Source: Xestospongia bergquistia (Eukaryota; Porifera; Demospongiae; Haplosclerida; Petrosiidae). Taken from it: a DNA stretch of 64,000 bases. The notes beneath the pieces are model-generated. The model worked only from the letters and a program-made list of their open reading frames with translations. It was not told the DNA's origin and did not search any database. The position numbers and the translations under genes were made by a program. This document shows, in pieces, positions 4,329 to 32,080 of this stretch. Location of the stretch: NCBI GenBank assembly GCA_963965975.1, contig OZ014412.1:12414849-12478848 (forward strand), in the 5' to 3' direction. How positions within the stretch are numbered: position 1 is the stretch's first letter; each line of letters starts with the position of its first letter.

Positions 4329-5390
4329 GTTTACATTAACACTTTAAAGTCTTTAAATTAGAGACTTTAGAAGGTTTAGACTATTGAGTGAAGTTAATAA
4401 AGTAAACAGCTCAGTCTAAAGGACTCTATGGGACTAACTAAATAAACTGTTATTAACAGTTTAGTAAGTTGGTTTGCATTAACACTTTAAAGTCTTTAAA
4501 TTAAAGACTTTAGAAGGTTTAGACTATTGAGTGAAGTTAATAAAGTAAACAGCTCAGTCTAAAGGACTCTATGGGACTAACTAAATAAACTGTTATAAAC
4601 AGTTTAGTAAGTTGGCTTGCCTTAACACTTTAAAGTCTTTAAATTAAAGACTTTAGAAGGTTTAGACTATTGATTGAAGTTAACAAAGTAAACAGCTAAG
4701 TCTAATGGACTCTAAGGCACTAACTAAATGAATTGTTATTAACAGTTTAGTAAGTTGGTTTGCATTACACTCTAAAGTCTTTAAATTAAAGACTTTAGAA
4801 GGTTTAGACTATTGAGTGAAGTTAATAAAGTAAAGAGCTCAGTCTAAACCACTCTATGGGACTAATTAAATAAACTGTTATTAACAGTTTAGTAAGTTTG
4901 CTTGCCCTAACACCATAAAGTCTTTAAATTAAAGACTTTAGAAGGTTTAGACTATTGATTGAAGTTAACAAAGTAAACAGCTCAGTCTAATGGACTCTAA
5001 GGCACTAACTAAATGAATTGTTATTAACAGTTTAGTAAGTTGGTTTGCATTACACTCTAAAGTCTTTAAATTAAAGACTTTAGAAGGTTTAGACTGTTGA
5101 GTGAAGTTAATAAAGTAAACAGCTCAGTCTAAACGACTCTATGGGACTAACTAAATAAAATGTTATTAACAGTTTAGTAAATTGGTTTGCATTAACACTC
5201 TAAAGTCTTTAAATTAAAGACTTTAGAAGATTTAGACTATTGAGTGAAGTTAATAAAGTTAACAGCTCAGTCTAAAGGACTCTATGGGACTAACTAAATA
5301 AACTGTTATTAACAGTTTAGTAAGTTCGTTTGCCTTAATACTCTAAAGTCATTAAATTAAAGACTTTACAAGGTTTAGACTATTGATTGA

Positions 5391-8300
5391 AGTTAACAAA
5401 GTAAACAGCTCAGTCTAATGGACTCTAAGAGATTAACTAAATGAACTGTTATTAACAGTTTAGTAGGTTGGCTTGCATTAAAACTCTAAAGTCTTTAAAT
5501 TAAAGACTTTAGAAGGTTTAGACTATTGATTGAAGTTAACAAAGTAAACAGCTCAGTCTAATGGACTCTATGGGACTGACTAAATGAACTGTTATTAACA
5601 GTCTAGTAAGTTGGTTTGCATTAACACATTACAGTCTTTAAATTAAAGACTTTAGAAGGTTTAGACTATTGAGTGAAGTTAATAAAGTAAACAGCTCAGT
5701 CTAATGGACTCTATTGGACGAACTAAATGAACTGTTATTAACAGTTTAGTAAGTTGGTTTGCATTAACAATCTAAAGTCTTTAAATTAAAGACTTTAGAA
5801 GGTTTAGACTATTGAGTGAAGTTAATAAAGTAAACAGCTCAGTCTAAAGGACTCTATGGGACTAACTAAATAAACTGTTATTAACAGTTTAGTAAGTTGG
5901 TTTGTATTAACACTCTAAAGTCTTTAAATTAAAGACTTTAGAAGGTTTAGACTATTGAGTGAAGTTAAAAAAGTAAACAGCTCAGTCTGAAGGACTCTAT
6001 GGGACTAACAAAATAAAATGTTATTAACAGTTTAGTAAATTGGTTTGCATTAACACTCTAAAGTCTTTAAATTAAAGACTTTATAAGGTTTAAACTATTG
6101 AGCGAACTTAATAAAGTAAACAGCTCAGTCTAAAGGACTCTATGGGACTAACAAAATAAACCGTTATTAACAGTTTAGTAAATTGCTTTGCCATAACGCT
6201 CTCAAGTCTTTAAATTAAAGACTTTAGAAGTTTTACACTATTGATTGAAGTGAGCAAAGTAAACAGCTCAGTCTAATGGACTCTAACGCACTAACTAAAT
6301 GAATTGTTATTAACAGTTTAGTAAGTTGGTTTGCATTACACTCTAAAGTCTTTATATTAAAGACTTTAGAAGGTTTAGACTATTGAGTGAAGTTAATAAA
6401 GTAAACAGCTAAGTCTAAACGACTCTATGGGACAAACTAAATAAACTGTTATTAACAGTTTAGTAAGTTGGTTTACATTAACACTCTACAGTCTTCAAAT
6501 TAAAGACTTTAGAAGGTTTAGACTATTGAGTGAAGTTAATAAAGTAAACAGCTCAGTCTAAACGACTCTATGGGACTAACTAAATAAACTGTTATTAACA
6601 GTTTAGTAAGTTTCTTTGCATTAACACTCTAAAGTCTTTCAATTAAAGACTTTAGAAGGTTTAGACTATTGATTGAAGTTAATAAAGTAAACAGCTCAGT
6701 CTAATGGACTCTAAGGCACTAACTAAATGAATTGTTATTAATAGTTTAGTAAGTTGGTTTGCATTACACTGTAAAGTCTTTAAATTAAAGACTTTAGAAG
6801 GTTTAGACTATTGATTGAAGTTAACAAAGTAAACAGCTCAGTCTAAAGGACTCTATGGGACTAACTAGATAAACTGTTATTAACAGTTTAGTAAGTTGGT
6901 TTGTATTAACACTCTAAAGTCTTTAAATTAAAGACTTTAGAAGGTTTAGACTATTTATTGAAGTTAAAAATGTAAACAGCCAGTCTAATGGACTCTATGG
7001 GACTAACTAAATGAACTGTTATTAACAGTTTAGTAAGTTGGTTTGCATTAACACTCTACAGTCTTTAAATTAAAGACTTTAGAAGGTTTAGACTATTGAG
7101 TGAAGTTAATAAAGTAAACAGCTCAGTCTAAAGGACTCTATGGGACTAACTAAATAAACTGTTATTAACAGTTTAGTAATTTGGTTTACATTAACACTCT
7201 AAAGTCTTTAAATTAAAGACTTTAGAAGGTTTAGACTATTGAGTGAAGTTAATAAAGTAAACAGCTCAGTATAAAGGAATCTATGGGACTAACTAAATAA
7301 ACTGTTATTAACAGTTTAGTAAGTTGGTTAGCATTAAGCCACTAAAGTCTTTAAATTAAAGACTTTAGAAGGTTTAGACTATTGAGTGAAGTTGTTAAAG
7401 TAAACAGCTCAGTCTAAAGGACTCTATGGGACTAACTAAATAAACTGCTATTAACAGTTTAGTAAGTTGGTTTGCGTTAACACTCTAAAGTCTTTAAATT
7501 AAAGACTTTAGATGATTTAGACTATTGAGTGAAGTTAATAAAGTAAACAGCTCAGTCTAAAGGACTCTATGGGACTAACTAAAGAAACTGTTATTAACAG
7601 TTTAGTAATTTTCTTTACATTAACACTCTAAAGTCTTTAAATTAAAGACTTTAGAAGGTTTAGACTATTGATTGAAGTTAATAAAGTAAACAGCTCAGTA
7701 TAAAGGAGTCTATGGGACTAACTAAATAAACTGTTATTAACAGTTAAGTAAGTTGGTTAGCATTAAGCCACTAAAGTCTTTAAATTAAAGACTTTAGAAG
7801 GTTTAGACTATTGAGTGAAGTTAACAAAGTAAACAGCTCAGTCTAATGGACTCTAAGAGATTAACTAAATGAACTGTTATTAACAGTTTAGTAGGTTGGC
7901 TTGCATTAAAACTCTAAAGTCTTTAAATTAAAGACTTTAGAAGGTTTAGACTATTGATTGAAGTTAACAAAGTAAACAGCTCAGTCTAATGGACTCTATG
8001 GGACTGACTAAATGAACTGTTATTAACAGTCTAGTAAGTTGGTTTGCATTAACACATTACAGTCTTTAAATTAAAGACTTTAGAAGGTTTAGACTATTGA
8101 GTGAAGTTAATAAAGTAAACAGCTCAGTCTAATGGACTCTATTGGACGAACTAAATGAACTGTTATTAACAGTTTAGTAAGTTGGTTTGCATTAACAATC
8201 TAAAGTCTTTAAATTAAAGACTTTAGAAGGTTTAGACTATTGAGTGAAGTTAATAAAGTAAACAGCTCAGTCTAAAGGACTCTATGGGACTAACTAAATA

Positions 8301-10246
8301 AACTGTTATTAACAGTTTAGTAAGTTGGTTTGTATTAACACTCTAAAGTCTTTAAATTAAAGACTTTAGAAGGTTTAGACTATTGAGTGAAGTTAAAAAA
8401 GTAAACAGCTCAGTCTGAAGGACTCTATGGGACTAACAAAATAAAATGTTATTAACAGTTTAGTAAATTGGTTTGCATTAACACTCTAAAGTCTTTAAAT
8501 TAAAGACTTTATAAGGTTTAAACTATTGAGCGAACTTAATAAAGTAAACAGCTCAGTCTAAAGGACTCTATGGGACTAACAAAATAAACCGTTATTAACA
8601 GTTTAGTAAATTGCTTTGCCATAACGCTCTCAAGTCTTTAAATTAAAGACTTTAGAAGTTTTACACTATTGATTGAAGTGAGCAAAGTAAACAGCTCAGT
8701 CTAATGGACTCTAACGCACTAACTAAATGAATTGTTATTAACAGTTTAGTAAGTTGGTTTGCATTACACTCTAAAGTCTTTATATTAAAGACTTTAGAAG
8801 GTTTAGACTATTGAGTGAAGTTAATAAAGTAAACAGCTAAGTCTGAACGACTCTATGGGACAAACTAAATAAACTGTTATTAACAGTTTAGTAAGTTGGT
8901 TTACATTAACACTCTACAGTCTTCAAATTAAAGACTTTAGAAGGTTTAGACTATTGAGTGAAGTTAATAAAGTAAACAGCTCAGTCTAAACGACTCTATG
9001 GGACTAACTAAATAAACTGTTATTAACAGTTTAGTAAGTTTCTTTGCATTAACACTCTAAAGTCTTTCAATTAAAGACTTTAGAAGGTTTAGACTATTGA
9101 TTGAAGTTAATAAAGTAAACAGCTCAGTCTAATGGACTCTAAGGCACTAACTAAATGAATTGTTATTAATAGTTTAGTAAGTTGGTTTGCATTACACTGT
9201 AAAGTCTTTAAATTAAAGACTTTAGAAGGTTTAGACTATTGATTGAAGTTAACAAAGTAAACAGCTCAGTCTAAAGGACTCTATGGGACTAACTAGATAA
9301 ACTGTTATTAACAGTTTAGTAAGTTGGTTTGTATTAACACTCTAAAGTCTTTAAATTAAAGACTTTAGAAGGTTTAGACTATTTATTGAAGTTAACAATG
9401 TAAACAGCCAGTCTAATGGACTCTATGGGACTAACTAAATGAACTGTTATTAACAGTTTAGTAAGTTGGTTTGCATTAACACTCTACAGTCTTTAAATTA
9501 AAGACTTTAGAAGGTTTAGACTATTGAGTGAAGTTAATAAAGTAAACAGCTCAGTCTAAAGGACTCTATGGGACTAACTAAATAAACTGTTATTAACAGT
9601 TTAGTAATTTGGTTTACATTAACACTCTAAAGTCTTTAAATTAAAGACTTTAGAAGGTTTAGACTATTGAGTGAAGTTAATAAAGTAAACAGCTCAGTAT
9701 AAAGGAATCTATGGGACTAACTAAATAAACTGTTATTAACAGTTTAGTAAGTTGGTTAGCATTAAGCCACTAAAGTCTTTAAATTAAAGACTTTAGAAGG
9801 TTTAGACTATTGAGTGAAGTTGTTAAAGTAAACAGCTCAGTCTAAAGGACTCTATGGGACTAACTAAATAAACTGCTATTAACAGTTTAGTAAGTTGGTT
9901 TGCGTTAACACTCTAAAGTCTTTAAATTAAAGACTTTAGATGATTTAGACTATTGAGTGAAGTTAATAAAGTAAACAGCTCAGTCTAAAGGACTCTATGG
10001 GACTAACTAAAGAAACTGTTATTAACAGTTTAGTAATTTTCTTTACATTAACACTCTAAAGTCTTTAAATTAAAGACTTTAGAAGGTTTAGACTATTGAT
10101 TGAAGTTAATAAAGTAAACAGCTCAGTATAAAGGAGTCTATGGGACTAACTAAATAAACTGTTATTAACAGTTAAGTAAGTTGGTTAGCATTAAGCCACT
10201 AAAGTCTTTAAATTAAAGACTTTAGAAGGTTTAGACTATTGAGTGA
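5391..10246 (+). repeat. 17-monomer HOR, 2,428 bp, tandem duplicate
   Basis: The block 5391-7818 is repeated at 7819-10246. Landmarks such as GAGATTAACTAAATGAACTG (5429 and 7857), TAGTAGGTTGGCTTGC and GTTAGCATTAAGCCAC keep a constant 2,428-bp offset. By eye I noticed only two substitutions, near 6411/8839 and 6967/9395, so this is among the youngest duplications here, or a recently homogenised one. Confidence 0.9.
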
Positions 10247-11589
10247 AGTTATTAAAGTAAACAGCTCAGTCTAAAGGACTCTATAGGACTAACAAAATAA
10301 ACTGTTATTAACAGTTTTGTAAGTTGCTTTGCCTTAACACAATAAAGTCTTTAAAATAAAGACTTTAGAAGGTTTAGACTATTGATTGAAGTTAACAAAG
10401 TAAACAGCTCAGTCTAATGGACTCTAAGGCACTAACTAAATGAATTGTTATTAACAGTTTAGTAAGTTGGTTTCCATTACACTCTAAAGTCTTTAAATTA
10501 AAGACTTTAGAAGGTTTAGACTATTGAGTGAAGTTAATAAAGTAAACAGCTCAGTCTAAAGGACTCTATGGGACTAACTAAATAAACTGTTATTAACAGT
10601 TTAGTAAGTTGGTTTGCCTTAACACTCTAAAGTCTTTAAATTAAAGACTTTAGAAGGTTTAGACTATTTATTGAAGTTAACAAAGTAAACAGCTCAGTCT
10701 AATGGACTCTATGGGACTAACTAAATGAACCGTTATTAACAGTTTAGTAAGTTGGTTTGCATTAACACTCTAAAGTCTTTAAGTTATAGACTTTAGAAGG
10801 TTTAGACTATTGAGTGAATTTAATAAAGTAAACAGCTCAGTCTAAAGGACTCTATGGGACTAACTAAATAAACTGTTATTAACAGTTTAACAAGTTGGCT
10901 TGCCTTAACACTCTAAAGTCTTTAAATTAAAGACTTTAGAAGTTTTAGACTATTGATTCAAGTTAACAAAGTAAAAAGCTCAGTCTAATGGACTCTATGG
11001 GACTAACTAAATGAACTGTTATTAACAGTTTATTAATTTGGTTTGCATTAACACTCTAAAGTCTTTAAATTAAAGACTTCAGAAGTTTTAGACTATTGAG
11101 TGAAGTTAATAAAGTAAACAGCTCAGTCTAAAGGACTCTATGGGACTAACTAAATAAACTGTTATTAACAGTTTAGTAAGTTGGTTTCTATTAACACTCT
11201 AAAGTCTTTAAATTAAAGACTTTAGAAGGTTTAGACTATTGAGTGAAGTTAAGAAAGTAATCAGCTCAGTCGAAAGGATTCTATGGGACTAACTAAATAA
11301 ACTGTTATTAACAGTTTAGTAAGTTGGTTGGCATTAACACTATAAAGTCTTTAAATTAAAGACTTTAGAAGGTTTAGACTATTGTTTGACGTTAACAAAG
11401 TCAACAGCTTACTCTAATGGGCTCTAAGGCACTAACTAAATGAATTGTTATTAACAGTTTAGTAAGGTTGTTTGCATTAACACTCTAAAGTCTTTAAATT
11501 AAAGACTTTAGAAGGTTTAGACTATTGATTGAAGTTAATAAAGTAAACAGCTCAGTCTAAAGGACTCTATGGGACTAACTAAATAAACT

Positions 11590-14400
11590 GTTATTAACAG
11601 TTTAGTAAGTTTGTTTCCATTAACACTTTACACTCTTTAATTTTAAGCCTTTATAAGGTTTAGACTATTCAGTAAATTTTATAGAGTAAACTGCTCACTC
11701 TAAAGGACTTATGGGACGAAGTAAATAAACTGCTATGAACAGTTTAGTAAGTTGGCTTGCTTAACACTCTAAAGTCTTTAAATTAAAGAGTTTAGAAGGT
11801 TTAGACTATTGATGGAAGTTAATAAAGTAAACAGCTCAGTCTAATGGACTCTAAGGCACTAACTAAATGAATTGTTATTAACAGTTTAGTAAGTTGGTTT
11901 GCATTACACTCTAAAGTCTTTAAATTAAAGACTTTAGAAGGTTTAGCCTATTGAGTGAAGTTTATAAACTAAACAGCTCAGTCTAAATGACTCTATGGGA
12001 CTAAGCAAATAAACTGCTATTAACAATGTTTAGTAAGTTTGTTTGCATTAACAATTTAAGTCTTTAAATTAAAGACTTTAGAAGGTTTAGACTATTAAGT
12101 GAAGATTATAAAGTAAACAGCTCAGTTTGAAGGACTCTATGGGACTAACTAAAGAAATTGTTATTAACACTTTAGTAAGTTGGTTTCCATTAACACTTTA
12201 CAGTCTTTAATTTTAAGTCTTTAGGAGGTTTAGACTATTGAGTAAATTTTATTGAGTAAACTGCTCAGTCTAAAGGACTCTATGGGACTAACTAAATCAA
12301 CTGCTATTAAGAGTTTAGTATGTTGGTTTCATTAACACTCTAAAGTCTTTAAATTAAAGACTTTAGAAGGTTTAGACTGTTGAGTTAAGTTAATAAAGTA
12401 AACAGCTCAGTCTAAAGGACTCTATGGGACTAACTAAATAAACTGTTATTAACAGTTTAGTAAGTTGGTTTGCATTAACACTCTAAAGTCTTTAAATTAA
12501 AGACTTTAGAAGGTTTAGACTATTGAGTGAAGTTAATAAAGTAAACAGCTCAGTCTAAAGGACTCTATGGGACTAACTAAATAAACTGTTATAAACAGTT
12601 TAGTAAGTTGGCTTGCCTTAACACCCTAAAGTCTTTAAATTAAAGACTTTAGAAGGGTTAGACTATTGATTGAAGTTAACAAAGTAAACAGCTCAGTCTA
12701 ATGGACTCTAAGGCACTAACTAAATGAATTGTTATTAACAATTTAGTAAGTTGGATTGCATTACACTCTAAAGTCTTTAAATTAAAGACTTTAGAAGGTT
12801 TAGACTATTGAGTGAAGTTAATAAAGTAAAGAGCTCAGTCTAAACGACTCTATGGGACTAACTAAATAAACTGTTATTAACAGTTTAGTAAGTTTGCTTC
12901 CCTTAACACTCTAAAGTCTTTAAATTAAAGACTTTAGAAGGTTTAGACTATTGATTGAAGTTAACGAAGTAAACAGCTCAGTCTAATGAACTCTAAGGCT
13001 CTAACTAAATGAATTGTTATTAACAGTTTAGTAAGTTGGTTTGCATTACACTCTAAAGTCTTTAAATTAAAGACTTTAGAAGGTTTAGACTGTTGAGTGA
13101 ATTTAATAAAGTAAACAGCTCAGTCTAAACGACTCTAAGGGACAAACTAAATAAACTGTTATTAACGGTTTAGTAAGTTGGTTTGCATTAACACTCTAAA
13201 GTCTTTAAATTAAAGACTTTAGAAGGTTTAGACTATTGAGTGAAGTTAATAAAGTTAACAGCTCAGTCTAAAGGACTCTATGGGACTAACTAAATAAACT
13301 GTTATTGACAGTTTAGTAAGTTGGTTTGCCTTAACACTCTAAAGTCTTTAAATTAAAGACTTTAGAAGGTTTAGACTATTGATTGAAGTTAACAAAGTAA
13401 ACAGCTCAGTCTAATGGACTCTAAGAGAATAACTAAATGAACTGTTATTAACAGTTTAGTAGGTTGGTTTGCATTAATACTCTAAAGTCTTTAAATTAAA
13501 GACTTTAGAAGGTTTAGACTATTGATTGAAGTTAACAAAGTAAACAGCTCAGTCTAATGGACTCTATGGGACTGACTAAATGAACTGTTATTAACAGTCT
13601 AGTAAGTTGGTTTGCATTAACACACTACAGTCTTTAAATTAAAGACTTTAGATGATTTAGACTATTGAGTGAAGTTAATAAAGTAAACAGCTTAGTCTAA
13701 TGGACTCTATTGGACTAACTATATGAACTGTTATTAACAGATTAGTAAGTTGGTTTTCATTAACACTCTAAAGTCTTTAAATTAAAGACTTTAGAAGGTT
13801 TAGACTGTTGACTGAAGTTAATAAAGTAAACAGCTCAGTCTAAAGGACTCCATGGGACTAACTAAATAAACTGTTATCAACAGTTCAGTAAGTTGGTTTG
13901 TATTAACACTCTAAAGTCTTTAAATTAAAGACTTTAGAAGGTTTAGACTATTGAGTCAAGTTAATAAAGTAAACAGCTCAGTCTAAAGGACTCTATGGGA
14001 CTAACTAAATAAACTGTTATTAACAGTTTAGTAAGTTGGTTTACATTAACTCTCTAAAGTCTTTAAATTAAAGACTTTAGAAGGTTTAGACTATTGAGTG
14101 AAGTTCATAAATTAAACAGCTCAGTCTAAAGGACTCTATGGGACTAACAAAATAAACTGTTATTAACAGTTTAGTAAGTTGGTTTGCATTAAGACACTAA
14201 AGACTTTAAATTAAAGACTTTAGAAGGTTTAGACTATGGAGTGAAGTTAATAAAGTAAACAGCTCAGTCTAAAGGACTCTATGGGACTAACAAAATAAAA
14301 TGTTATTAACAGTTTAGTAGGTTGGTTTGCATTAACACTCTAAAGTCTTTAAATTAAAGACTTTATAAGGTTTAGACTATTGAGCGAACTTAATAAAGTA
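11590..14400 (+). repeat. Dispersed copy of satellite blocks from 2.6-3.3 kb and 4.35-6.1 kb
   Basis: The stretch near 11.6-12.3 kb matches 2.6-3.3 kb (TTTACACTCTTTAATTTTAAG at 2631 and 11627, offset 8,996). The stretch from about 12.4 kb matches from about 4.4 kb (AAGTAAAGAGCTCAG at 4828 and 12824; TGTTATAAACAG at 4591 and 12587; offset 7,996), and later shifts to 8,282 after two extra monomers. It is an older, longer-range duplication than the 2,428-bp one. Confidence 0.75.
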
Positions 14401-16006
14401 AACAGCTCAGTCTAAAGGACTCTATGGGACTAACAAAATAAACCGTTATTAACAGTTTAGTAAATTGCTTTGCCTTAACGCTCTGAAGTCTTTAAATTAA
14501 AGACTTTAGAAGGTTTAGACTATTCATTGAAGTTAACAAAGTAAACAGCTCAGTCTAATGGACTCTAAGGCACTAACTAAATGAATTGTTATTAACAGTT
14601 TAGTAAGTTTGTTTCCATTACACTCTAATGTCTTTAAATTAAGGACTTTAGAAGGTTGAGACTATTGAGTGAAGTTAATAAAGTAAACAGCTCAGTCTAA
14701 AGGACTCTATGGGAATAACTAAATAAACTGTTATTAACAGTTTAGTAAGTTAGTTTGCATTAACACTCTAAAGTCTTTAAATTAAAGACTTTAGAAGGTT
14801 TAGACTATTGAGTGAAGTTAATAAAGTAAACAGCTCAGTCTAAAGGACTCTATGGGACTAACTAAATAAACTGTTATTAACAGTTTAGTAAGTTGGTTTG
14901 CCTTAACACTCTAAAGTCTTTAAATTAAAGACTTTAGAAGGTTTAGACTATTGATTGAAGTTAACAAAGTAAACAGCTCAGTCTAATGGACTCTATGGGA
15001 CTAACTAAATAAACTGTTATTAACAGTTTAGTAAGTTGGTTTGCATTAACACTCTAAAGTCTTTAAATTAAAGACTTTAGAAGGTTTAGACTATTGAGTG
15101 AAGTTAATAAAGTAAACAGCTCAGTCTAAAGGACTCTATGGGACTAACTAAATAAACTGTTATTAACAGTTTAGTAAGGTGGTTTGCCTTAACACTCTAA
15201 AGTCTTTAAATTAAAGACTTTAGAAGGTTTAGACTATTGATTGAAGTTAACAAAGTCAACAGCTTAGTCTAATGGACTCTAAGGCACTAACTAAATGAAT
15301 TGTTATTAACAGTTTAGTAAGGTTGTTTGCATTAACACTCTAAAGTCTTTAAATTAAAGACTTTAGAAGGTTTAGACTATTGATTGAAGTTAATAAAGTA
15401 AACAGCTCAGTCTAAAGGACTCTATGGGACTAACTAAATAAACTCTTATTAACAGTTTAGTAAGTTGGTTTGTATTAACACTCTAAAGTCTTTAAATTAA
15501 AGACTTTAGAAGGTTTAGACTATTGAGTGAAGTTAATAAAGTAATCAGCTCAGTCTAAAGGACTCTATGGGACTAACTAAATAAACTGTTATTAACAGTT
15601 TAGTAAGTTGGTTTGCCTTAACACTCTAAAGTCTTTAAATTAAAGACTTTAGAAGTTTTAGACTATTGATTGAAGTTAACAAAGTAAACAGCTCAGTCTA
15701 ATGGTCTCTATTGGACTAACTAAATAAACTGTTATTAACAGTTTAGTAATTTGGTTTGCATTAACACTCTAAAGTCTTTAAATTAAAGACTTTAGAAGGT
15801 TTAGACTATTGAGTGAAGTTAACAAAGTAAACAGCTCAGTCTAAAGGACTCTATGGGACTAACTAAATAAACTGTTATCAACAGGTTAGTAAGTTGGTTT
15901 GTATTAACACTCTACAGTCTTTAACTTAAAGACTTTAGATGATTTAGACTATTGAGTGAAGTTAATAAAGTAAACGGCTCAGTGTAATGGACTCTATTGG
16001 ACTAAC

Positions 16007-16169
16007 TAAAGACTTTAGAGTGTTAATGCAAACAAACTTACTAAACTGTTAATAACAGTTTATTTAGTTAGTCCCATAGAGTCGTTTAGACTGAGCTGAT
16101 TACTTTATTAACTTCATTCAATAGTCTAAACCTTCTAAAGTCTTTAATTTAAAGACTTTAGAGTGTTAA
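16007..16169 (-). repeat. Single inverted satellite monomer, copy 1
   Basis: One monomer plus a fifth runs in the R orientation inside the F array. The left junction joins F ...GGACTAAC to R GACTTTAGAGTG through a shared TAAA (16007-16010). The right junction joins R ...GAGTG to F ATTAAAGACTTT through a shared TTAA (16166-16169). Both joins therefore show four bases of microhomology. The same structure recurs 1,818 bp downstream. Confidence 0.93.
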
Positions 16170-17824
16170 ATTAAAGACTTTAGAAGGTTTAGACTATTGA
16201 TTGAAGTTAATAAAGTAAACAGCTCAGTCTAATGGACACTATTGGACTAACTAAATGAACTGTTATTAACAGTTTAGTAAGTTGGTTTGCATTAACACTC
16301 TAAAGTCTTTAAATTAAAGACTTCAGAAGTTTTAGACTATTGAGTGAAGTAAATAAAGTAAACAGCTCAGTCTAAAGGACTCTATGGGACTAACTAAAGA
16401 AACTGTTCTTAACACTTTAGTAAGATGGTTTGTATTAACACTCTAAAGTCTTTAAATTAAAGACTTTAGAAGGTTTAGACTATTGAGTGAATTTAATAAA
16501 GTAATCAGCTCAGTCAAAAGGACTCTATGGGACAAACTAAATAAACTGTTATTAACAGTTTAGTAAGTTGGTTTGCCTTAACACTCTAAAGTCTTTAAAT
16601 TAAAGACTTTAGAAGGTTTAGACTATTGATTGAAGTTAACAATGTCAACAGCTTAGTCTAATGGACTCTAAGGCACTAACTAAAGGAATTGTTATTAACA
16701 GTTTAGTAAGGTTTTTTGCATTAACACTCTAAAGTCTTTAAATTAAAGACTTTAGAAGGTTTAGACTATTGATTGAAGTTAATAAAGTAAACAGCTCAGT
16801 CTAAAGGACTCTATGGGACTAACTAAAAAAACTGTTATTAACAGTTTAGGAAGTTGGTTTGCATTAACACTATAAAGTCTTTAATTTAAAGACTTTAGAA
16901 GGTTTAGACTATTGAGATAAGTTCATAAATTAAACGGCTCAGTCTAAAGGACTCTATGGGACTAACTAAATAAACTGTTATTAACAGTTTAGTAAGTTGG
17001 TTTACATTAACACTCTAAAGTCTTTAAATTAAAGACTTTAGAAGTTTTAGACTATTGAGTGCAGTTAATAAAGTAAACGGCTCAGTCTAAAGGACTCTAT
17101 GGGACTAACTAAATAAACTGTTATTAACAGTTTAGTAAGTTGGTTTGTATTAACACTCTAAAGTCTTTAAATTAAAGACTTTAGAAGGTTTAGACTATTG
17201 AGTGAATTTAATAAAGTAATCAGCTCAGTCTAAAGGACTCTATGGGACTAACTAAATAAACTGTTATTAACAGTTTAGTAAGTTTGTTTGCATTAACACT
17301 CTAAAGTCTTTAAATTAAAGACTTTAGAAGGTTTAGACTATTGAGTGAAGTTAATAAAGTAAACAGCTCAGTCTAAAGGACTCTATGGGACTAACTAAAT
17401 AAACTGTTATTAACAGTTTAGTAAGGTGGTTTGCCTTAACACTCTAAAGTCTTTAAATTAAAGACTTTAGAAGGTTTAGACTATTGATTGAAGTTAACAA
17501 AGTAAACAGCTCAGTCTAATGGTCTCTATTGGACCAACTAAATGAAATGTTATTAACAGTTTAGTAAGTTGGTTTGCATTAACACTCTAAAGTCTTTAAA
17601 TTAAAGACTTTAGAAGGTTAAGACTATTGAGTGAAGTTAACAAAGTAAACAGCTCAGTCTAAAGGACTCTATGGGACTAACTAAATAAACTGTTATCAAC
17701 AGTTTAGTAAGTTTGTTTGTATTAACACTCTACAGTCTTTAAATTAAAGGCTTTAGATGATTTAGACTATTGAGTGAAGTTAATAAAGTAAACGGCTCAG
17801 TGTAATGGACTCTATTGGACTAAC
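16170..17824 (+). repeat. 143-bp satellite array, F orientation, between the two inverted monomers
   Basis: About 11.6 F monomers fill this stretch and end with the variant GTGTAATGGACTCTATTGG that precedes both inverted monomers. One monomer near 16880 has a T rather than an A at the centre of the large palindrome, which is the R-type base. No gene is seen. Confidence 0.95.
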
Positions 17825-17987
17825 TAAAGACTTTAGAGTGTTAATGCAAACCAACTTAATAAACTGTTAATAACAGTTTCTTTAGTTAGTCCCATAGAGT
17901 CCTTTAGACTGAGCTGATTACTTTATTAACTTCATTCAATAGTCTAAACCTTCTAAAGTCTTTAATTTAAAGACTTTAGAGTGTTAA
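17825..17987 (-). repeat. Single inverted satellite monomer, copy 2
   Basis: This repeats the inverted segment at 16007-16169 with both junctions exactly 1,818 bp further on (TAAA at 17825-17828, TTAA at 17984-17987). Identical junctions mean the inversion happened once and was then duplicated with its flank as part of a larger unit. Small differences from copy 1 (for example TTTCTTTAG against TTTATTTAG) show some divergence since. Confidence 0.93.
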
Positions 17988-18268
17988 ATTAAAGACTTTA
18001 GAAGGTTTAGACTATTGATTGAAGTTAACAAAGTAAACAGCTCAGTCTAATGGACTCTATTGGACTAACTAAATGAACTGTTATTAACAGTTTAGTAAGT
18101 TGGTTTGTATTAACACTCTAAAGTTTTTAAATTAAAGACTTTAGAAGGTTTAGACTATTGAGTGAATTTAATAAAGTAATCAGCTCAGTCTAAAGGACTC
18201 TATGGGACTAACTAAATAAACTGTTATTAACAGTTTAGTAAGTTGGTTTTCATTAACACTCTAAAGTC
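17988..18268 (+). repeat. Last two F-orientation monomers before the flip
   Basis: Two F monomers with the diagnostic AATCAGCTCAG variant follow inverted copy 2 and end at the head-to-head junction at 18269. The segment is about 280 bp. Confidence 0.93.
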
Positions 18269-18272
18269 TTTA
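18269..18272. other. Array orientation switch, F to R
   Basis: The F sequence CACTCTAAAGTC runs into the R sequence GTTAGTCCAATAGAG through a shared TTTA. This is the exact reverse complement of the F-to-R junctions at 16007 and 17825. The match continues on both sides with diagnostic variants: reverse complements of GTGTAATGG, GATGATTTAG, CTACAGTC and TTATCAACAG on the right, and AATCAGCTCAG on the left. Downstream of this point every monomer seen is R. Confidence 0.93.
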
Positions 18273-20207
18273 GTTAGTCCAATAGAGTCCATTACACTGA
18301 GCTGTTTACTTTATTAACTTCACTCAACAGTCTAAATCATCTAAAGTCTTTAATTTAAAGACTGTAGAGTGTTAATACAAACCAACTTACTAAACTGTTG
18401 ATAACAGTTTATTTAGTTAGACTAATAGAGTCCTTTAGACTGAGCTGTTTACTTTATTAAATTCACTCAACTGTCTAAACCTTCTAAAGTCTTTAATTTA
18501 AAGACTTTAGAGTGTTAATGGAAAACAACTTACTAAACTGTTAATAACAGTTCATTTAGTTAGTCCAATAGAGTCCATTAGACTGAGCTGTTTACTTTGT
18601 TAACTTCAATCAATAGTCTAAACCTACTAAAGTCTTTAATTTAAAGACTTTAGAGTGTTAATGCAAACCAACTTACTAAACTGTTAATAACATTTTATTT
18701 AGTTAGTCTCATAGAGTCCATTAGACTGAGCTGTTTACTTTATTAACTTCACTCAATAGTCTAAAACTTCTAAAGTCTTTAATTTAAAGACTTTAGAGTG
18801 TTAATACAAACCAACTTACTAAACTGTTAATAACATTTTATTTAGTTAGTCCCATAGAGTCCTTTAGACTGAGCTGTTTACTTTATTATCTTCACTCAAT
18901 AGTCTAAAACTTCTAAAGTCTTTAATTTAAAGTCTTTAGAGAGTTAATGCAAAGCAACTTACTAAACTGTTAATAACAGTTCATTTAGTTAGTCCCATAG
19001 AGTCCATTAGACTGAGCTTTTTACTTTGTTAACTTCAATCAATAGTCTAAACCTTCTAAAGTCTTTAATTTAAAGACTTTAGTGGCTTAATGCTAACCAA
19101 CTTACTAAACTGTTAATAACAATTTATTTAGTTAGTCCCATAGAGTCCTTTAGACTGAGCTGTTTACTTTATTAACTACACTCAATAGTCTAAACCTTCT
19201 AAAGTCTTTAATTTAAAGACTTTAGAGTGTTCAAACAAACCAACTTACTAAACTGTTAATAACAGTTTATTTAGTTAGTCCCATAGAGTCCTTTAGACTG
19301 AGCTGTTTAATTTATGAACTTCTCTCAATAGTCTAAACCTTCTAAAGTCTTTAATTTAAAGACTTTAGAGTGTTAATGCCAAACAACTTCCTAAACTGTT
19401 AATAACAGTTTATTTAGTTAGTCCCATAGAGTCCTTTAGACAGAGTTGTTTACTTTAGTAACATCTCTCTTTAGTCTAAACCTTCTAAAGTCTTTAATTT
19501 AAAGACTTTAGAGTGTTAATGCAAACAAACTTACTAAACTGTTAATAAAAATTTATTTAGATAGTGCCTTAGAGTCCATTAGACTAAGCTGTTGACTTTG
19601 TAAACTTCAATCAATAGTCTAAACCTTCTAAAGTCTTTAATTTAAAGACTTTAGAGTGTTAAGGCAAACCAACTTACTAAACTGTTAATAACAGTTTATT
19701 TAGTTAGTCCCATAGAGTCCTTTAGGCTGAGCTGTTTACTTTATTAACTTCACTCAATAGTCAAAACCTTGTAAAGTCTTTAATTTAAAGACTTTAGAGT
19801 GTTAATGCAAACCAACTTACTAAACTGTTAATAACAGTTTATTTAGTTAGTCCCATAGAGTCCTTTAGACTGAGCTGATTACTTTATTAACTTCACTCAA
19901 TAGTCTAAACCTTCTAAAGTCTTTAATTTAAAGACTTTAGAGTGTTAATACAAACCAACTTACTAAAGTGTTAATAACATTTTATTTAGTTAGTCCCATA
20001 GAGTCCTATAGACTGAGCTGTTTACTTTATTAAGTTCACTCAATAGTCTAAAACTTCTGAAGTCTTTATTTTAAAGACTTTTGAGTGTTAATGCAAACCT
20101 ACTTACTAAACTGTTAATAACAGTTCATTTATTTAGTGCCATAGAGTCCATTAGACTGTGCTTTTTACTTTGTTAACTTCAATCAATAGTCTAAACCTTC
20201 TAAAGTC

Positions 20208-20990
20208 TTTAATTTAAAGACTTTAGAGTGTTAAGGCAAACCAACTTACTAAACTGTTAATAACAGTTTATTTAGTTAGTCCCATAGAGTCCTTTAGACT
20301 GAGCTGTTTACTTTATTAACTTCACTCAATAGTCTAAACCTTCTAAAGTCTTTAACTTAAAGACTTTAGAGTGTTAATGCAAACCAACTTACTAAACTGT
20401 TAATGACAGTTCATTTAGTTAGTCCCAGAGAGTCCATTAGACTGAGCTGTTTACTTTGTTAACTTCAATCAATAGTCTAAACCTTCTAAAGTCTTTAATT
20501 TAAAGACTTTAGAGTGTTAAGGCAAACCAACTTACTAAACTGTTAATAACAGTTTATTTAGTTAGTCCCATAGAGTCCTTTAGACTGAGCTGTTTACTTT
20601 ATTAACTTCACTCAATAGTCTAAACCTTCTAAAGTCTTTAACTTAAAGACTTTAGAGTGTTAATGCAAACCAACTTACTAAACTGTTAATGACAGTTCAT
20701 TTAGTTAGTCCCAGAGAGTCCATTAGACTGAGCTGTTTACTTTGTTAACTTCAATCAATAGTCTAAACCTTCTAAAGTCTTTAATTTAAAGACTTTAGAG
20801 TGTTAAGGCAAACCAACTTACTAAACTGTTAATAACAGTTTATTTAGTTAGTCCCATAGAGTCCTTTAGACTGAGCTGTTTACTTTATTAACTTCACTCA
20901 ATAGTCTAAACCTTCTAAAGTCTTTAACTTAAAGACTTTAGAGTGTTAATGCAAACCAACTTACTAAACTGTTGATAACAGTTTATTTAG
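20208..20990 (-). repeat. Dimer HOR, 286 bp, about 2.5 copies
   Basis: A two-monomer unit is repeated, marked by TTTAACTTAAAG at 20351, 20637 and 20923 and by TTAATGACAGTTC with CCCAGAGAGTCC in the first two units. The spacing is exactly 286 bp. Confidence 0.85.
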
Positions 20991-23900
20991 TTAGTCCCAT
21001 AGAGTCCTTTAGACTGAGCTGTTTACTTTATTCACTTCACTCAATAGTCTAAACCTTCTAAAGTCTTTAGTTTAAAGACTTTAGAGTGTTAAGGCAAAGC
21101 AACTTACAAAACTGTTAATAACAGTTTATTTTGTTAGTCCTATACAGTCCTTTATACTGAGCTGTTTACTTTATTAACTTCACTCAATAGTCTAAACCTT
21201 ATAAAGTCTGTAATTTAAAGACTTTAGAGTGTTAATGTAAACCAACTTATTAAACTGTTAATAACAGTTTATTTAGTTAGTCCAATAGTGTCCTTTAGAC
21301 TGAGCTGTTTACCTTATGAACTTCACTCAATAGTTTAAACCTTGTAAAGTCTTTAATTTAAAGACTTTAGAGTGTTAATGCAAACCAACTTACTAAACTG
21401 TTAATAACAGTTTATTTAGTTAGTCCCATAGAGTCGTTTAGACTGAGCTGTTTACTTTATTAACTTCTCTCAATAGTCTAAACCTTCTAAAGTCTTTAAT
21501 TTAAAGACTTTAGAGTGTAATGCAAACATACTTACTAAACTGTTAATAACAATTCATTTAGTTAGTGCCTTAGAGTCCATTAGACTGAGCTGTTTACTTT
21601 GTTAACTTCAATCAATAGTCTAAACCTTCTAAAGTCTTTAATTTAAAGACTTTAGAGTGTTAAGGCAAGCCAACTTACTAAACTGTTAATAACAGTTTAT
21701 TTAGTTAGTCCCATAGAGTCCTTTAGACTGAGCTGTTTACTTTATTAACTTCACTCAATAGTCTAAACCTTCTAAAGTCTTTAATTTAAAGACTTTAGAG
21801 TGTTAAGGCAAACCAACTTACTCAACTGTTAATAACAGTTTATTTAGTTAGTCCCATAGAGTCGTTAGACTGAGCTGTTTACTTTATTAACTTCACTCAA
21901 TAGTCTAAACTTTCTAAAGTCTTTAATTTAAAGACTTTAGTGGCTTAATGCTAACCAACTTACTAAACTGTTAATAACAGTTTATTTAGTTAGTTCCATA
22001 GAGTCCTTTAGACTGAGCTGTTTACTTTATTAACTTCACTCAATAGTCTAAACCTTCTAAAGTCTTTAATTTAAAGACTTTAGAGTGTTAATGTAAACAA
22101 ACTTACTAAACTGTTAATAACAGTTTATTTAGTTAGTCCCATAGTGTTTTTTAGACTGAGCTGTTTACTTTATTAACTTCACTCAATAGTCTTAACCTTC
22201 TAAAGTCTTTAATTTAAAGACTTTAGAGTGTTAATGCAAACCAACTTACTAAACTGTTAATAACAGTTTATTTAGTTAGTCCCATAGAGTCCTTTAGACT
22301 GAGCTGTTTACTTTATTAACTTCTCTCCATAGTCTAAACATTCTAAAGTCTTTAATTTAGAGACTTTAGAGTGTAATGCAAACCAACTTACTAAACTGTT
22401 AATAACAATTCATTTAGTTAGTGCCTTAGAGTCCATTAGACTGAGCTTTTTACTTTGTTAACTTCAATCAATAGTCTAAACCTTCTAAAGTCTTTAATTT
22501 AAAGACTTTAGAGCGTTAAGGCAAGCCAACTTACTAAACTGTTAATAACAGTTTATTTAGTTAGTCCCATAGATTCCTTTAGACTGAGCTGTTTACTTTC
22601 TTAACTTCACTCAATAGTCTAAACCTTCTAAAGTCTGTAATTTAAAGACTTTAGAGTGTTAATGCAAACCAACTTACTAAACTGTTAATAACAGTTTATT
22701 TAGTTAGTCCCATAGAGTCGTTTAGACTTAGCTGTTTACTTTATTAACTTCACTCAATAGTCTAAACCTTCTAAAGTCTTTAATTTAAAGACTTTACAGT
22801 GTAATGCAAACCAACTTACTAAACTGTTAATAACAATTCATTTAGTTTGTGCCTTAGAGTCCATTAGACTGAGCTGTTTACTTTGTTCACTTCAATCAAT
22901 AGTCTAAACCTTCTAAAGTCTTTAATTTAAAGACTTTAGAGCGTTAAGTTAAGCAAATTACTAAACTGTTAATAACAGTTTATTTTGTTAGTCCCATAGA
23001 GTCCTTTAGACTGAGCTGTTAACTTTATTAACTTCACTCAATAGTCTAAACCTTCTAAAGTCTTTAATTTAAAGACTTTAGAGTGTTAATGCAAACCAAC
23101 TTACTAAACTTTTAATAACAGTTCATTTAGTTAGTCCAATAGAGTCCATTACACTGAGCTGTTTACTTTGTTCACTTCAATCAATAGTCTAAACCTTCTA
23201 AAGTCTTTAATTTAAAGACTTTAGAGTGATAAGACAAACCAACTTACTAAACTGTTAATGACGGTTTATTTTGTTAGTCCCATAGAGTCCTTTAAACTGA
23301 GCTGTTTACTTTATTAACTTCACTCAATAGTCTAAACCTTATAAAGTCTTTAATTTAAAGACTTTAGAGTGTTAATGCCAACCAACTTACTAAACTGTTA
23401 ATAACAGTTTATTTTGTTAGTCCCATAGAGTCCTTTAGACTGAGCTGTTTACTTTATTAAATTCACTCAATAGTCTAAACCTTCTAAAGTCTTTAATTTA
23501 AAGACTTTAGAGTCTTAATGCAAACCAACTTACTAAACTGTTAATAACAGTTTATTTAATTAGTCCCATAGAGTCCTTTAGACTGAGCTGTTTACTTTAT
23601 TAACTTCACTCAATAGTCTAAACCTTCTAAAGTCTTTAATTTAAAGACTTTAGACTCTTAATGCAAACCACCCTACTAAACTGTTAAAAACAGTTTATTT
23701 TGTTAGTCCCATAGAGTCCTTTAGACTGAGCTGTTTACTTTATTAACTTCACTCAATAGTCTAAACCTTCTAAAGTCTTTAATTTAAAGACTTTAGAGTG
23801 TTAATGCAAACCAACTTACTAAACATTGTTAATAGCAGTTTATTTGGTTAGTCCCATAGAGTCATTTAGACTGAGCTCTTTAGTTTATAAACTTCACTCA

Positions 23901-26900
23901 ATAGGCTAAACCTTCTAAAGTCTTTAATTTAAGGACTTTAGAGTGTAATGCAAACCAACTTACTAAACTGTTAATAACAATTCATTTAGTTAGTGCCTTA
24001 GAGTCCATTAGACTGAGCTGTTTACTTTGTTAACTTCAATCAATAGTCTAAACCTTCTAAAGTCTTTAATTTAAAGACTTTAGAGTGTTAAGGCAAAGCA
24101 ACTTACTAAACCGTTAATAACAGTTTATTTAGTTAGTCCCATAGAGTCCTTTAGACTGAGCTGTTTACTTTACTAACTTCACTCAATAGTCTAAACCTTC
24201 TAAAGTCTTTAATTTAAAAGACTTTAGAGTGTTGATACAAACCAACTTACTAAACTGTTAATAAGAGTTTATTTAGTTAGTCCCATAGAGTCCTTTAGAC
24301 TGTGCTGTTTAATTTATTAACTTCACTCAATAGTCTAAACCTTCTAAAGTCTTTAATTTAAAGACTTTGGAGTGTTAATGCAAACCAACTTACTAAATTG
24401 TTAATAACAGTTTATTTAGTTAGTCCCATAGAGTCCTTTAGACTGAGCTGTTTACTTTATTAACTTCACTCAATAGTCTAAACCTTCTAAAGTCTTTAAT
24501 TTAAAGACTTTAGAGTGTTAAGGCAAACCAACTTACTAAACTGTTAATAACAGTTTATTTACTTAGTCCCATAGAGTCCTTTAGACTGAGCTGTTTACTT
24601 TATTCACTTCACTCAATAGTCTAAACCTTCTAAAGTCTTTAGTTTAAAGACTTTAGAGTGTTAAGGCAAAGCAACTTACAAAACTGTTAATAACAGTTTA
24701 TTTTGTTAGTCCTATAGAGTCCTTTATACTGAGCTGTTTACTTTATTAACTTCACTCAATAGTCTAAACCTTATAAAGTCTTTTATTTAATGACTTTAGT
24801 GGCTTAATGCTAACCAACTTACTAAACTGTTAATAACAGTTTCTTTAGTTAGTCCCATAGAGTCATTTAGACTGAGCTGTTTACTTTATTAACTTCACTC
24901 AATAGTCTAAACCTTCTAAAGTCTGTAATTTAAAGACTTTAGAGTGTTAATGTAAACCAACTTACTAAACTGTTAATAACAGTTTATTTAGTTAGTCCAA
25001 TAGTGTCCTTTAGACTGAGCTGTTTACCTTATTAACTTCACTCAATAGTTTAAACCTTGTAAAGTCTTTAATTTAAAGACTTTAGAGTGTTAATGCAAAC
25101 AAACTTACTAAACTGTTAATAACAGTTTATTTAGTTAGTCCCATAGAGTCGTTTAGACTGAGCTGTTTACTTTATTAACTTCTCTCAATAGTCTAAACCT
25201 TCTAAAGTCTTTAATTTAAAGACTTTAGAGTGTAATGCAAACATACTTACTAAACTGTTAATAACAATTCATTTAGTTAGTGCCTTAGAGTCCATTAGAC
25301 TGAGCAGTTTACTTTGTTAACTTCAATCAATAGTCTAAACCTTTTAAAGTCTTTAATTTAAAGACTTTAGAGTGTTAAGGCAAGCCAACTTACTAAACTT
25401 TTAATAACAGTTTATTTAGTTAGTCCCATAGAGTCCTTTAGACTGAGCTGTTTACTTTATTAACTTCACTCAATAGTCTAAACCTTCTAAAGTCTTTAAT
25501 TTAAAGACTTTAGAGTGTTAAGGCAAACCAACTTACTCAACTGTTAATAACAGTTTATTTAGTTAGTCCCATAGAGTCGTTAGACTGAGCTGTTTACTTT
25601 ATTAACTTCACTCAATAGTCTGAACTTTCTAAAGTCTTTAATTTAAAGACTTCATTGGCTTAATGCTAACCAACTTACTAAACTGTTAATAACAGTTTAT
25701 TTAGTTAGTTCCATTGAGTCGTTTAGACTGAGCTGTTTACTTTATTAACTTCACTCAATAGTCTAAACCTTCTAAAGTCTTTAATTTAAAAACTTTAGAG
25801 TGTTAATGTAAACAAACTTACTAAACTGTTAATAACAGTTTATTTAGTTAGTCCCATAGTGTTTTTTAGACTGAGCTGTTTACTTTATTAACTTCACTCA
25901 ATAGTCTTAACCTTCTAAAGTCTTTAATTTAAAGACTTTAGAGTGTTAATGCAAACCAACTTACTAAACTGTTAATAACAGTTTATTTAGTTAGTCCCAT
26001 AGAGTCGTTTAGACTGAGCTGTTTACTTTATTAACTTCTCTCAATAGTCTAAACATTCTAAAGTCTTTAATTTAAAGACTTTAGAGTGTAATGCAAACCA
26101 ACTTACTAAACTGTTAATAACAATTCATTTAGTTAGAGCCTTAGAGTCCATTAGACTGAGCTTTTTACTTTGTTAACTTCAATCAATAGTCTAAACCTTC
26201 TAAAGTCTTTAATTTAAAGACTTTAGAGTGTTAAGGCAAGCCAACTTACTAAACTGTTAATAACAGTTTATTTAGTTAGTCCCATAGATTCCTTTAGACT
26301 GAGCTGTTTACTTTATTAACTTCACTCAATAGTCTAAACCTTCTAAAGTCTTTAATTTAAAGACTTTAGAGTGTTAATGCAAACCAACTTACTAAACTGC
26401 TAATAACAGTTTATTCAGTTAGTCCCATAGAGTCGTTTAGACTTAGCTGCTTACTTTATTAACTTTACTCAATAGTCTAAACCTTCTAAAGTCTTTAATT
26501 TAAAGACTTTACAGTGTAATGCAAACCAACTTACTAAACTGTTAAGAACAGTTCATTTAGTTAGTCCCATAGAGTCCATTAGACTGAGCTGTTTACTTTG
26601 TTAACTTCAATCAATAGTCTAAACCTTCTAAAGTCTTTAATTTAAAGACTTTAGAGTGTTAATGCAAACCAACCTACTAAACTGTTAATAACAGTTCATT
26701 TAGTTAGTCCCACGGAGTCCATTAGGCTGAGCTGTTTACTTTGTTAACTTCAATCAATAGTCTAAACCTTCTAAAGTCTTTAATTTAAAGACTTTAGAGT
26801 ATTAATACAAACCAACTTACTAAACTGTTAATAACAGTTTATTTAGTTAGTCCCGTAGAGTCCTTTAGACTGAGCTGTTTAATTTATGAACTTCACTCAA

Positions 26901-28340
26901 TAGTCTAAATTTTTCTAAAGTCTTTAATTTAAAATCTTTAGAGTGTTAATGTAAACCAACTTACTAAACTGTTAATAAAGGTTTATTTAGTTAGTCCCAT
27001 AGAGTCCTTTACACTGAGCTGTTTACTTTATTAAATTCACTCAATAGTCTAAACCTTCTAAAGTCTTTAATTTAAAGACTTTAGAGTGATAAGACAAACC
27101 AACTTACTAAACTGTTAATGACGGTTTATTTTGTTAGTCCCATAGAGTCCTTTAAACTGAGCTGTTTACTTTATTAACTTCACTCAATAGTCTAAACCTT
27201 ATAAAGTCTTTAATTTAAAGACTTTAGAGTGTTAATGCAAACCAACTTACTAAACTGTTAATAACAGTTTAATTTGTTAGTACCATAGAGTCCTTTAGAC
27301 TGAGCTGTTTACTTTATTAAATTCACTCAATAGTCTAAACCTTCTAAAGTCTTTAATTTAAAGACTTTAGAGTCTTAATGCAAACCAACTTACTAAACTG
27401 TTAATAACAGTTTATTTAATTAGTCCCATAGAGTCCTTTAGACTGAGCTGTTTACTTTATTAACTTCACTCAATAGTCTAAACCTTCTAAAGTCTTTAAT
27501 TTAAAGACTTTAGACTCTTAATGCAAACCACCTTACTAAACTGTTAAAAACAGTTTATTTTGTTAGTCCCATAGAGTCCTTTAGACTGAGCTGTTTACTT
27601 TATTAACTTCACTCAATAGTCTAAACCTTCTAAAGTCTTTAATTTAAAGACTTTAGAGTGTTAATGCAAACCAACTTACTAAACATTGTTAATAGCAGTT
27701 TATTTGGTTAGTCCCATAGAGTCATTTAGACTGAGCTGTTTAGTTTATAAACTTCACTCAATAGGCTAAACCTTCTAAAGTCTTTAATTTAAGGACTTTA
27801 GAGTGTAATGCAAACCAACTTACTAAACTGTTAATAACAATTCATTTAGTTAGTGCCTTAGAGTCCATTAGACTGAGCTGTTTACTTTGTTAACTTCAAT
27901 CAATAGTCTAAACCTTCTAAAGTCTTTAATTTAAAGACTTTAGAGTGTTAAGGCAAAGCAACTTACTAAACCGTTAATAACAGTTTATTTAGTTAGTCCC
28001 ATAGAGTCCTTTAGACTGAGCTGTTTACTTTACTAACTTCACTCAATAGTCTAAACCTTCTAAAGTCTTTAATTTAAAAGACTTTAGAGTGTTAATACAA
28101 ACCAACTTACTAAACTGTTAATAAGAGTTTATTTAGTTAGTCCCATAGAGTCCTTTAGACTGTGCTGTTTAATTTATTAACTTCACTCAATAGTCTAAAC
28201 CTTCTAAAGTCTTTAATTTAAAGACTTTAGAGTGTTAATGCAAACCAACTTACTAAATTGTTAATAACAGTTTATTTAGTTATTCCCATAGAGTCCTTTA
28301 GACTGAGCTGTTTACTTTATTAACTTCACTCAATAGTCTA
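20990..28340 (-). repeat. 25- to 27-monomer HOR, about 3.6-3.9 kb, tandem duplicate
   Basis: Block 1 (about 20.99-24.5 kb) matches block 2 (about 24.56-28.34 kb). The offset starts at 3,572 (AACTTACAAAACTG at 21101 and 24673), becomes 3,715 (TGCAAACATAC at 21521 and 25236) and then 3,860 (AAACATTGTTAATAGC at 23821 and 27681). The second copy therefore gained two single monomers, one of them near 24790-24930 carrying TAGTGGCTTAATGC. Confidence 0.85.
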
Positions 28341-28344
28341 AACT

Positions 28345-31300: not shown

Positions 31301-31490
31301 ATTAGATATAGCTTTTTACTTTGTTAACTTCAATCAATAGTCTAAACCTTCTAAAGTCTTTAATTTAAAGACTTTAGAGTGTTAACGCAAACCAACTTAC
31401 TAAACTCTTAATAAGAGATCATTTAGTTTGTCCCTTAGAGTCTATTAGTCTGAGCTGTTTACTTTGTTAACTTCAATCAATAGTCTAAAC
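28345..31490 (-). repeat. 11-monomer HOR, 1,575 bp, tandem duplicate
   Basis: The rare variant GTTATTCCCACAGAGTAC occurs at 28421 and 29996, and the same order of variants follows in both copies (GCGGCATAATGC, AAATATTGTTAATA, GAGACCATTTTACTG, GATCATTTAGTTTGTCC). A 3-base insertion in TAATATAGCAG near 30555 distinguishes copy 2. Confidence 0.87.
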
Positions 31491-32080
31491 CTTCTAAAGT
31501 CTTTAATTTAAAGACTTTAGAGTGTTAATTCAAACCAATTTACTAAACTGTTAATAACAGTTCATTTATTTAGTCCCATAGAGTCCATTAGATTGAGCTG
31601 TTTACTTTGTTAACTTCAATCAATAGTCTAAACCTTCTAAAGTCTTTAATTTAAAGACTTTAGAGTGTTAATGCAAACCAACTTACTAAACTGTTAACAG
31701 TTTATTTAGTTAGTCCCATAGAGTCCTTTAGACTAAGCTGTTTACTTTATTAACTACACTCAATAGTCTAAACCTTCTAAAGTCTTTAATTTAAAGACTT
31801 TAGAGTGTTAAAGCAAACAAACTTACTAAACTGTTAATAACAGTTCATTTAGTTAGTCCCATAGAGTCCATTAGATAAAGCTTTTTACTTTGTTAACTTC
31901 AATCAATAGTCTAAACCTTCTAAAGTCTTTAATTTAAAGACGTTAGAGTGTTAATGCAAACCAACTTATTAAACTCTTAATAAGAGATCATTTAGTTTGT
32001 CCCTTAGAGTCTATTAGTCTGAGCTGTTTACTTTGCTAACTTCAATCAATAGTCTAAACCTTCTAAAGTCTTTAATTTAA
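30960..32080 (-). repeat. 4-monomer HOR, about 569 bp, tandem duplicate
   Basis: A monomer with a shortened second palindrome (ACTGTTAACAG, six bases lost) lies at 31121 and 31690, 569 bp apart, in the same variant context on each side. The shared deletion makes it a firm marker of a four-monomer duplication. Confidence 0.82.

Follow-up and report, generated by a model that had tools for sequence, protein, structure and literature searches.

How a satellite array comes to change its polarity, and how such a change relates to short inverted stretches beside it, is the question raised by this locus; to our knowledge, the origin of inverted domains in satellite arrays is unsettled. The window, by which we mean the whole 64,000-nucleotide stretch analyzed (G000:C2:12414849-12478848), consists almost entirely of a 143-bp satellite that runs in one orientation (F) to 18268 and in the other (R) from 18269. 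It departs from this plain F-then-R arrangement in two short inverted stretches and one transposon. Polarity was decoded by comparing the array with the consensus monomer base by base, on both strands and in circular fashion, and junctions were searched for in the whole assembly (146.46 Mb, 21 contigs); all junction orders and identities are those of the assembled sequence alone. Frequency counts were made without partial monomers (1523 of 1580 kept; 1658 of 1723 full in a wider set). One 71-mer of the satellite has 337 exact forward and 106 exact reverse matches in the assembly, spread over at least contigs C1 and C2. The consensus monomer contains two perfect dyads, of 29 bp (14-bp arms) and 21 bp (10-bp arms), and is predicted to fold well as single-stranded DNA (-24.3 kcal/mol, z -4.9).

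Decoding places a jump from F position 7 of the consensus to R position 67, here termed J1, at 16007 and at 17825, and a return from R 52 to F 65, termed J2, at 16166 and at 17984, with the two copies of each spaced 1818 bp apart. At 18269, a switch from F 63 to R 11, termed K, amounts to J1 on the complementary strand. The features referred to below are as follows, in window coordinates unless marked C2.

1..16006, plus strand: 143-bp satellite array of F polarity (TRF period 143, 112 copies; circular decoding)
15856..15998, plus strand: F monomer left of J1 copy 1, carrying all eight diagnostic variants
16007..16165, minus strand: inverted monomer copy 1, 159 bp, entered via J1 (consensus position 7 to 67)
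16166..17824, plus strand: F stretch of the 1818-bp tandem unit, beginning at J2, where R 52 meets F 65 with a shared TTAA
17674..17816, plus strand: F monomer left of J1 copy 2, carrying all eight diagnostic variants
17825..17983, minus strand: inverted monomer copy 2, between J1 and J2
17984..18268, plus strand: F stretch from J2 (proposed fold-back point) to K, from the mirror alignment
17984-18113: unpaired 130-bp spacer of the mirror alignment, whose left arm starts at 17983 and is matched to a right arm starting at 18114
18257..18279, minus strand: K, where F passes to R (consensus position 63 to 11) in the exact reverse complement of J1
18281..18423, minus strand: R monomer right of K, carrying all eight diagnostic variants
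18269..20217, minus strand: proposed mirror arm in the R array, aligned with the F unit that precedes J1 copy 2
18269..64000, continuing beyond the window to C2:12501476, minus strand: R-polarity array, interrupted by the transposon at 52938-55441

The identity of J1 and K is directly observed. The 23-bp J1 core lies at 16000 and 17818 on the plus strand and at 18257 on the minus strand, and a search of the whole assembly allowing at most one mismatch returned three places only (two forward, one reverse; control, 0). When the three junctions were aligned over 305 bp, 291 bases were invariant and 14 variable, four of the latter being private to copy 1, four to copy 2, and six separating K from both. 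K matches each J1 copy at 295 of 305 positions and shares with both an identical 52-bp core (-34 to +17), which bears out the earlier note's description of K as the exact reverse complement of J1. By comparison, random dimer pairs from the array (286 bp) have a mean identity of 91.1%, and 0.23% of 59,559 such pairs reach 96.7%. A set of eight variants (23C, 46T, 59C, 84T, 86A, 128G, 132T, and 142T) is present in full in 3 of 1580 monomers, precisely those adjoining the two J1 copies and K, and the next-best monomers comprise one with seven of the variants and ten with six.

The five motifs named in the earlier note were all found by eye on the expected sides. The note had also held that variants match outward for more than 100 bp on both sides, which is true of the side formed by the F monomer at J1 and the R monomer at K. 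There the strong evidence extends over about 170 bp, and the second monomer outward, at 92% identity, already falls inside the span given by shifted controls. The inverted-monomer side offers less, with 153 of 160 bases identical and one clear variant in common, 118T, that is uncommon elsewhere (41 of the 1510 full-length monomers away from the junction zone). Together, the core match, the near-identity, and the exclusive eight-variant monomer make the common origin of J1 and K secure, and their descent from one junction is well supported at the level of sequence.

The variable sites also bear on the order of descent. When polarized by the consensus, two sites are derived in both J1 copies relative to K and four are derived in K alone, and none unites K with one J1 copy in the derived state. 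K probably split off before the two J1 copies separated, on the strength of few sites and of variants that can recur; with that order, the tandem unit need not pre-date K.

Our preferred reading, to which we give slightly better than even weight, is that K and the J1 copies are one F-to-R boundary, inversely duplicated by fold-back at J2 in a unit that was then tandemly duplicated. The ancestral state would have been a single F-to-R polarity boundary. During repair or replication, a strand would have turned at J2 (17984) and, on the opposite strand, copied that boundary along with some 2 kb of the adjoining array, yielding the product F-J1-R(159 bp)-J2-F(285 bp)-K-R; later unequal exchange would have tandemly duplicated the 1818-bp unit and so given rise to the copy at 16007. 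The inverted monomer would accordingly be a by-product of boundary duplication and not the seed of the polarity change. The fold-back step, J2 as its location, and the priority of the boundary are what we infer; if a strand did fold back at J2, K must be the reverse complement of J1, J2 must lie between the two, where it does sit, and a partner junction at the far end of the R domain is unneeded.

Such a partner is what the earlier note had predicted, an R-to-F junction with the sequence GAGTG-TTAA-ATTAAAG where the R domain stops. What closes the R domain, at C2:12501477 (window +86629), is a junction of an unrelated type that passes from R 33 to F 23 (33|23, here junction C). The partner sequence, which is that of J2, was found with up to two mismatches in 30 at two places only in the whole assembly, both on the inverted monomers of the window, and at none in reverse. 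The missing partner and the ending of the R domain in another junction type both count in favor of fold-back.

Around J2, a gapped alignment of the sequence running leftward from 17983 with that running rightward from 18114 matches at 1727 of 1818 positions (95.0%), with two whole-monomer gaps and the 130-bp spacer; this identity is modestly above background, and TTAA is the sole short sequence shared at the turn. In monomer order, the unit left of J1 copy 2 scores 28.6 against the R array from K. Of 422 placements begun more than 20 monomers into the R domain, none attains this score, and of 1000 order shuffles, 12 do; when the junction monomer was left out, the corresponding figures were 0 of 423 and 30 of 1000. 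The error model underlying these scores was loosened after its strict form had returned one unrelated monomer pair only (mismatch weight from 0.05 to 0.3, gap from -4 to -3), and the loosened form was used in the later order, inverted-block, and mirror tests. The 1000 shuffles replaced a first loosened run (60 shuffles, maximum 23.3 vs 30.1) and give a weaker, fairer figure. We take the monomer-order match at K as moderate support for a mirror. By raw nucleotide score, the unit reaches 1351 at the K position, against 1345 at the highest-scoring of 64 other R-domain segments, and the K/J1 mirror rises only modestly over background once the first monomer is passed. To the left of J1 copy 1, the sequence aligns at 1840 of 1966 positions (93.6%) and gave no monomer-order signal (120 of 1000 shuffles, 115 of 422 placements). 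Of 319 gapless inverted blocks, 45 were listed; two of these join the F array of the window to the R domain, with four monomers each, and in this listing no long mirror of the F array to the left was visible in the R domain past ~2 kb.

The direction of copying may be read, with less certainty, from the relatives of the unit. The closest relatives of its monomers lie in the R domain in nine cases and in the F array to the left in three, with five ties, the control stretch giving 12, 13, and 10, respectively, so that an R-type ancestry of these monomers is only a lean in the sequence comparison. Combined with the position of the spacer on the K side and of K as the outgroup, this lean weakly suggests that K is the older boundary and J1 the copy, the direction being uncertain.

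The earlier note had regarded the switch as an array-wide flip. This describes the window only; in all, 14 polarity switches, those of the window included, lie within the 246 kb of array examined, so that K is one switch among several and no array-wide event. Across this region, subarrays on the kilobase scale run in opposite orientations, and conserved inversion-site sequences recur in the assembly, the J1/K sequence at three places, a junction termed B at five, and junction C at seven. In whole-assembly searches, all three types occur in both orientations, as two forward and one reverse for J1/K, two forward and three reverse for B (one with two mismatches), and five forward and two reverse for C (two with one mismatch). 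J2, with two forward copies and no reverse copy in the assembly, is the exception among the junctions.

The clearest parallel to the arrangement in the window surrounds a turn at 12556635, B', which is flanked by a reverse-complement copy of junction C at 12554410 and a direct copy at 12560754, in the order R-C'-F-B'-R-C-F. The inner arms of B' match at 2162 of 2222 positions (97.3%), with gaps of 429 and 143 bp that correspond to whole monomers, and the outer flanks at 1318 of 1408 (93.6%); the block B-R-C at 12515451 matches the inverse of C'-F-B' at 93.6%. The order F-J1-R-J2-F-K-R has the same form, namely a boundary, a turn, and the boundary in reverse complement, which supports the fold-back reading. 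The switch at 12307594 stands at the center of the 29-bp dyad, and its R arm matches F sequence at 2117 of 2149 positions (98.5%) with one 53-bp gap; the F match ends 1144 bp upstream, a spacer of exactly eight monomers. At the switch at 12320739, the arms match at 1618 of 1653 positions (97.9%). The inverted arms at these two switches and at the C pair likewise count for fold-back.

In a mirror-arm test, 9 of the 14 switches beat all but at most 15 of 400 random runs. The J2 arms were exceeded by 3 of 400 at copy 1 and by 21 of 400 at copy 2 (17984). The test gave no mirror for the J1 arms (122 of 400 at 16007, 67 of 400 at 17825) or at the switches 12515451 (94 of 400) and 12518452 (124 of 400). 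When the comparison is limited to runs no more than 40 kb away, which include true paralogues, the result is weak also at 12307594 (47 of 244), 12501477 (33 of 278), and 12517673 (18 of 274).

Several of these results count against fold-back: J2 occurs in one orientation, the turn B' (112|5) lies off any dyad, and the J1 arms are unmirrored. To these are added the modest K/J1 mirror past the first monomer, the narrow raw score at K, the lack of an order signal at copy 1, the lack of a long mirror past ~2 kb among the listed blocks, the two unmirrored switches, the weak results against nearby runs at three more, and the slightness of the lean of the unit monomers toward R-type relatives. A broader proposition, which we advance tentatively and at rather less than even weight, is that polarity boundaries multiply as units, every new turn being a fold-back that inversely copies an older boundary. 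If true, the F/R mosaic would be a nested record of fold-back events that could be ordered by the occurrence of each junction and its reverse complement.

Among the alternatives, ordinary homologous recombination between arms of opposite polarity (sister or ectopic exchange, or flip-flop isomerization), with no fold-back synthesis, ranks highest, though we consider it unlikely. Exchange of this kind can flip any junction with F and R arms to its reverse complement, which fits the presence of three junction types in both orientations, and inverted homology is plentiful in an array of mixed polarity. A simple flip, however, leaves one junction and not J1 and K in tandem, so that an extra duplication would be required, and the exact-register spacer and dyad-centered turn at 12307594, albeit at one switch only, suit fold-back better.

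Lower in our estimation, and improbable, is the path of the earlier note, in which the inverted monomer came first, its unit was tandemly repeated, and an F monomer then crossed over with the inverted monomer in the following unit, flipping about 1.5 kb that was later amplified into the R domain. The shared history of J1 and K on which this path relied stands, and the path yields K as the reverse complement of J1, accounts for the position of K after the second unit copy, and has J1 and J2 paired in both unit copies. The crossover itself fares worse. Beyond the two unit copies, the predicted J2 partner turned up nowhere in the assembly, and the R domain closes with junction C; later loss of the partner could explain its absence, but the path then requires this loss in addition to growth from about 1.5 kb to 68 kb. 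The two derived sites common to the J1 copies are, moreover, missing from K, and the like architecture found elsewhere in the array favors inverted duplication of an existing boundary over the growth of a one-monomer inversion.

An assembly or library artifact, arising from chimeric fold-back reads or mis-joined haplotypes, appears very unlikely to us. Inverted arrays are hard to assemble, and the order of the junctions is known from the assembly alone, but fold-back chimeras would be near-identical palindromes, whereas the junction copies differ at 8-10 of 305 positions and the arms by 1.5-7%, and junctions B and C recur at distant places. Separate formation of J1 and K by independent breakage at a hot spot is strongly disfavored, for although the two perfect dyads of the monomer could cluster breakpoints, the same full eight-variant monomer stands at all three junctions and nowhere else among 1580, and the other junction types use other phases.

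What is new here, with fold-back copying of a boundary as our preferred reading, is that boundaries are traced as copies in both orientations with fold-back geometry and with turn points between them; we know of no report of satellite junctions in both orientations, our literature search having been confined to open-licence papers. Inverted satellite subarrays with conserved inversion sites are already known from Tribolium. In Tribolium madens, TmSat1 and TmSat2 form macro-dyads, kilobase-scale inverted subarrays that result from changes of monomer orientation, at inversion sites (INV_1a, INV_1b, and INV_2) that recur and are conserved (PMC13081366). The authors stated that macro-dyads had until then been documented exclusively in Tribolium, and the portion of their text examined weighs the structural significance of inversion sites and the mechanisms of their distribution and exchange and contains no fold-back model of origin (PMC13081366). 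The term macro-dyad is used again in later work on Edessa true bugs (PMC13427858). Arrays of this kind are further characterized by a location at the (peri)centromeres of all chromosomes and by a general symmetry in length between opposed subarrays; the satellite 71-mer of the present array lies on at least two contigs. The present array resembles that of T. madens, as far as the text examined describes it, in its inverted kilobase-scale subarrays and recurrent conserved junctions; it differs in its 143-bp satellite, in the small number of junction copies (3, 5, and 7), and in having junctions traceable in either orientation, some of them separated by turn points.

Fold-back geometry is itself familiar from other settings, here compared on the basis of the parts of each paper examined. 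In human fold-back inverted duplications, the inverted copy lies next to a single-copy spacer whose boundary carries short inverted sequences (PMC3907307). A single-copy spacer is found here too, of 1144 bp at 12307594 and 130 bp at the J2 alignment, whereas the human events are large and gene-bearing and pass through dicentric intermediates, and those proposed here lie in a satellite array at a scale of 0.1-4 kb (PMC3907307). In ODIRA, switching between leading- and lagging-strand templates at forks yields inverted copies, and the likeness to the present array lies in these copies, the ODIRA intermediates being described as hairpin-capped and extrachromosomal (PMC10766183). Primate alpha-satellite arrays share with this one changes of polarity within the array that are resolved by monomer-level decoding, and include large inversion polymorphisms, one of 3.2 Mb; the text examined describes no chain of shared junctions (PMC11062924). 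Breakpoints in both orientations with a turn point between them constitute a datable trace of mechanism, by which fold-back copying versus crossover inversion becomes testable in any long-read satellite assembly.

Other regularities were noted in the array. Within C2:12501477-12621644, B in reverse and C in forward orientation form paired cassettes, 3.7-4.1 kb apart, at 12556624, 12595445, and 12617648, the latter two located by pattern only; it seems that copying has carried a block of inverted polarity along the array. By eye, the C-type R-to-F junctions (12554410, 12560754, 12501477, and 12517673) resemble a fold at the 21-bp dyad minus about 11 hairpin bases. Several F and R stretches within C2:12302355-12327945 have like internal jumps, 31/83 and 30/113, and the presence of these jumps on both strands points to one shared rearranged monomer variant.

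Two inserts interrupt the satellite. Within the R array, window positions 52938-55441 are occupied by a 2.5-kb DNA transposon at a TTAA site, with ends CCCTTTGAGCGCG / CGCGCTCAAAGGG as read off the sequence. Its Pfam domains are DDE_Tnp_1_7 (E 5e-45 and 3e-37) and zf-Tnp_2, and by domain and TTAA site we take it to be piggyBac-like; the transposase comprises two open stretches separated by a gap that looks, by eye, like a short intron. A 1.4-kb non-satellite insert lies within the F array at C2:12354435-12355834 (window -60413 to -59014) and carries the terminal inverted repeats GGTAACTGAAATGCG / CGCATTTCAGTTACC.
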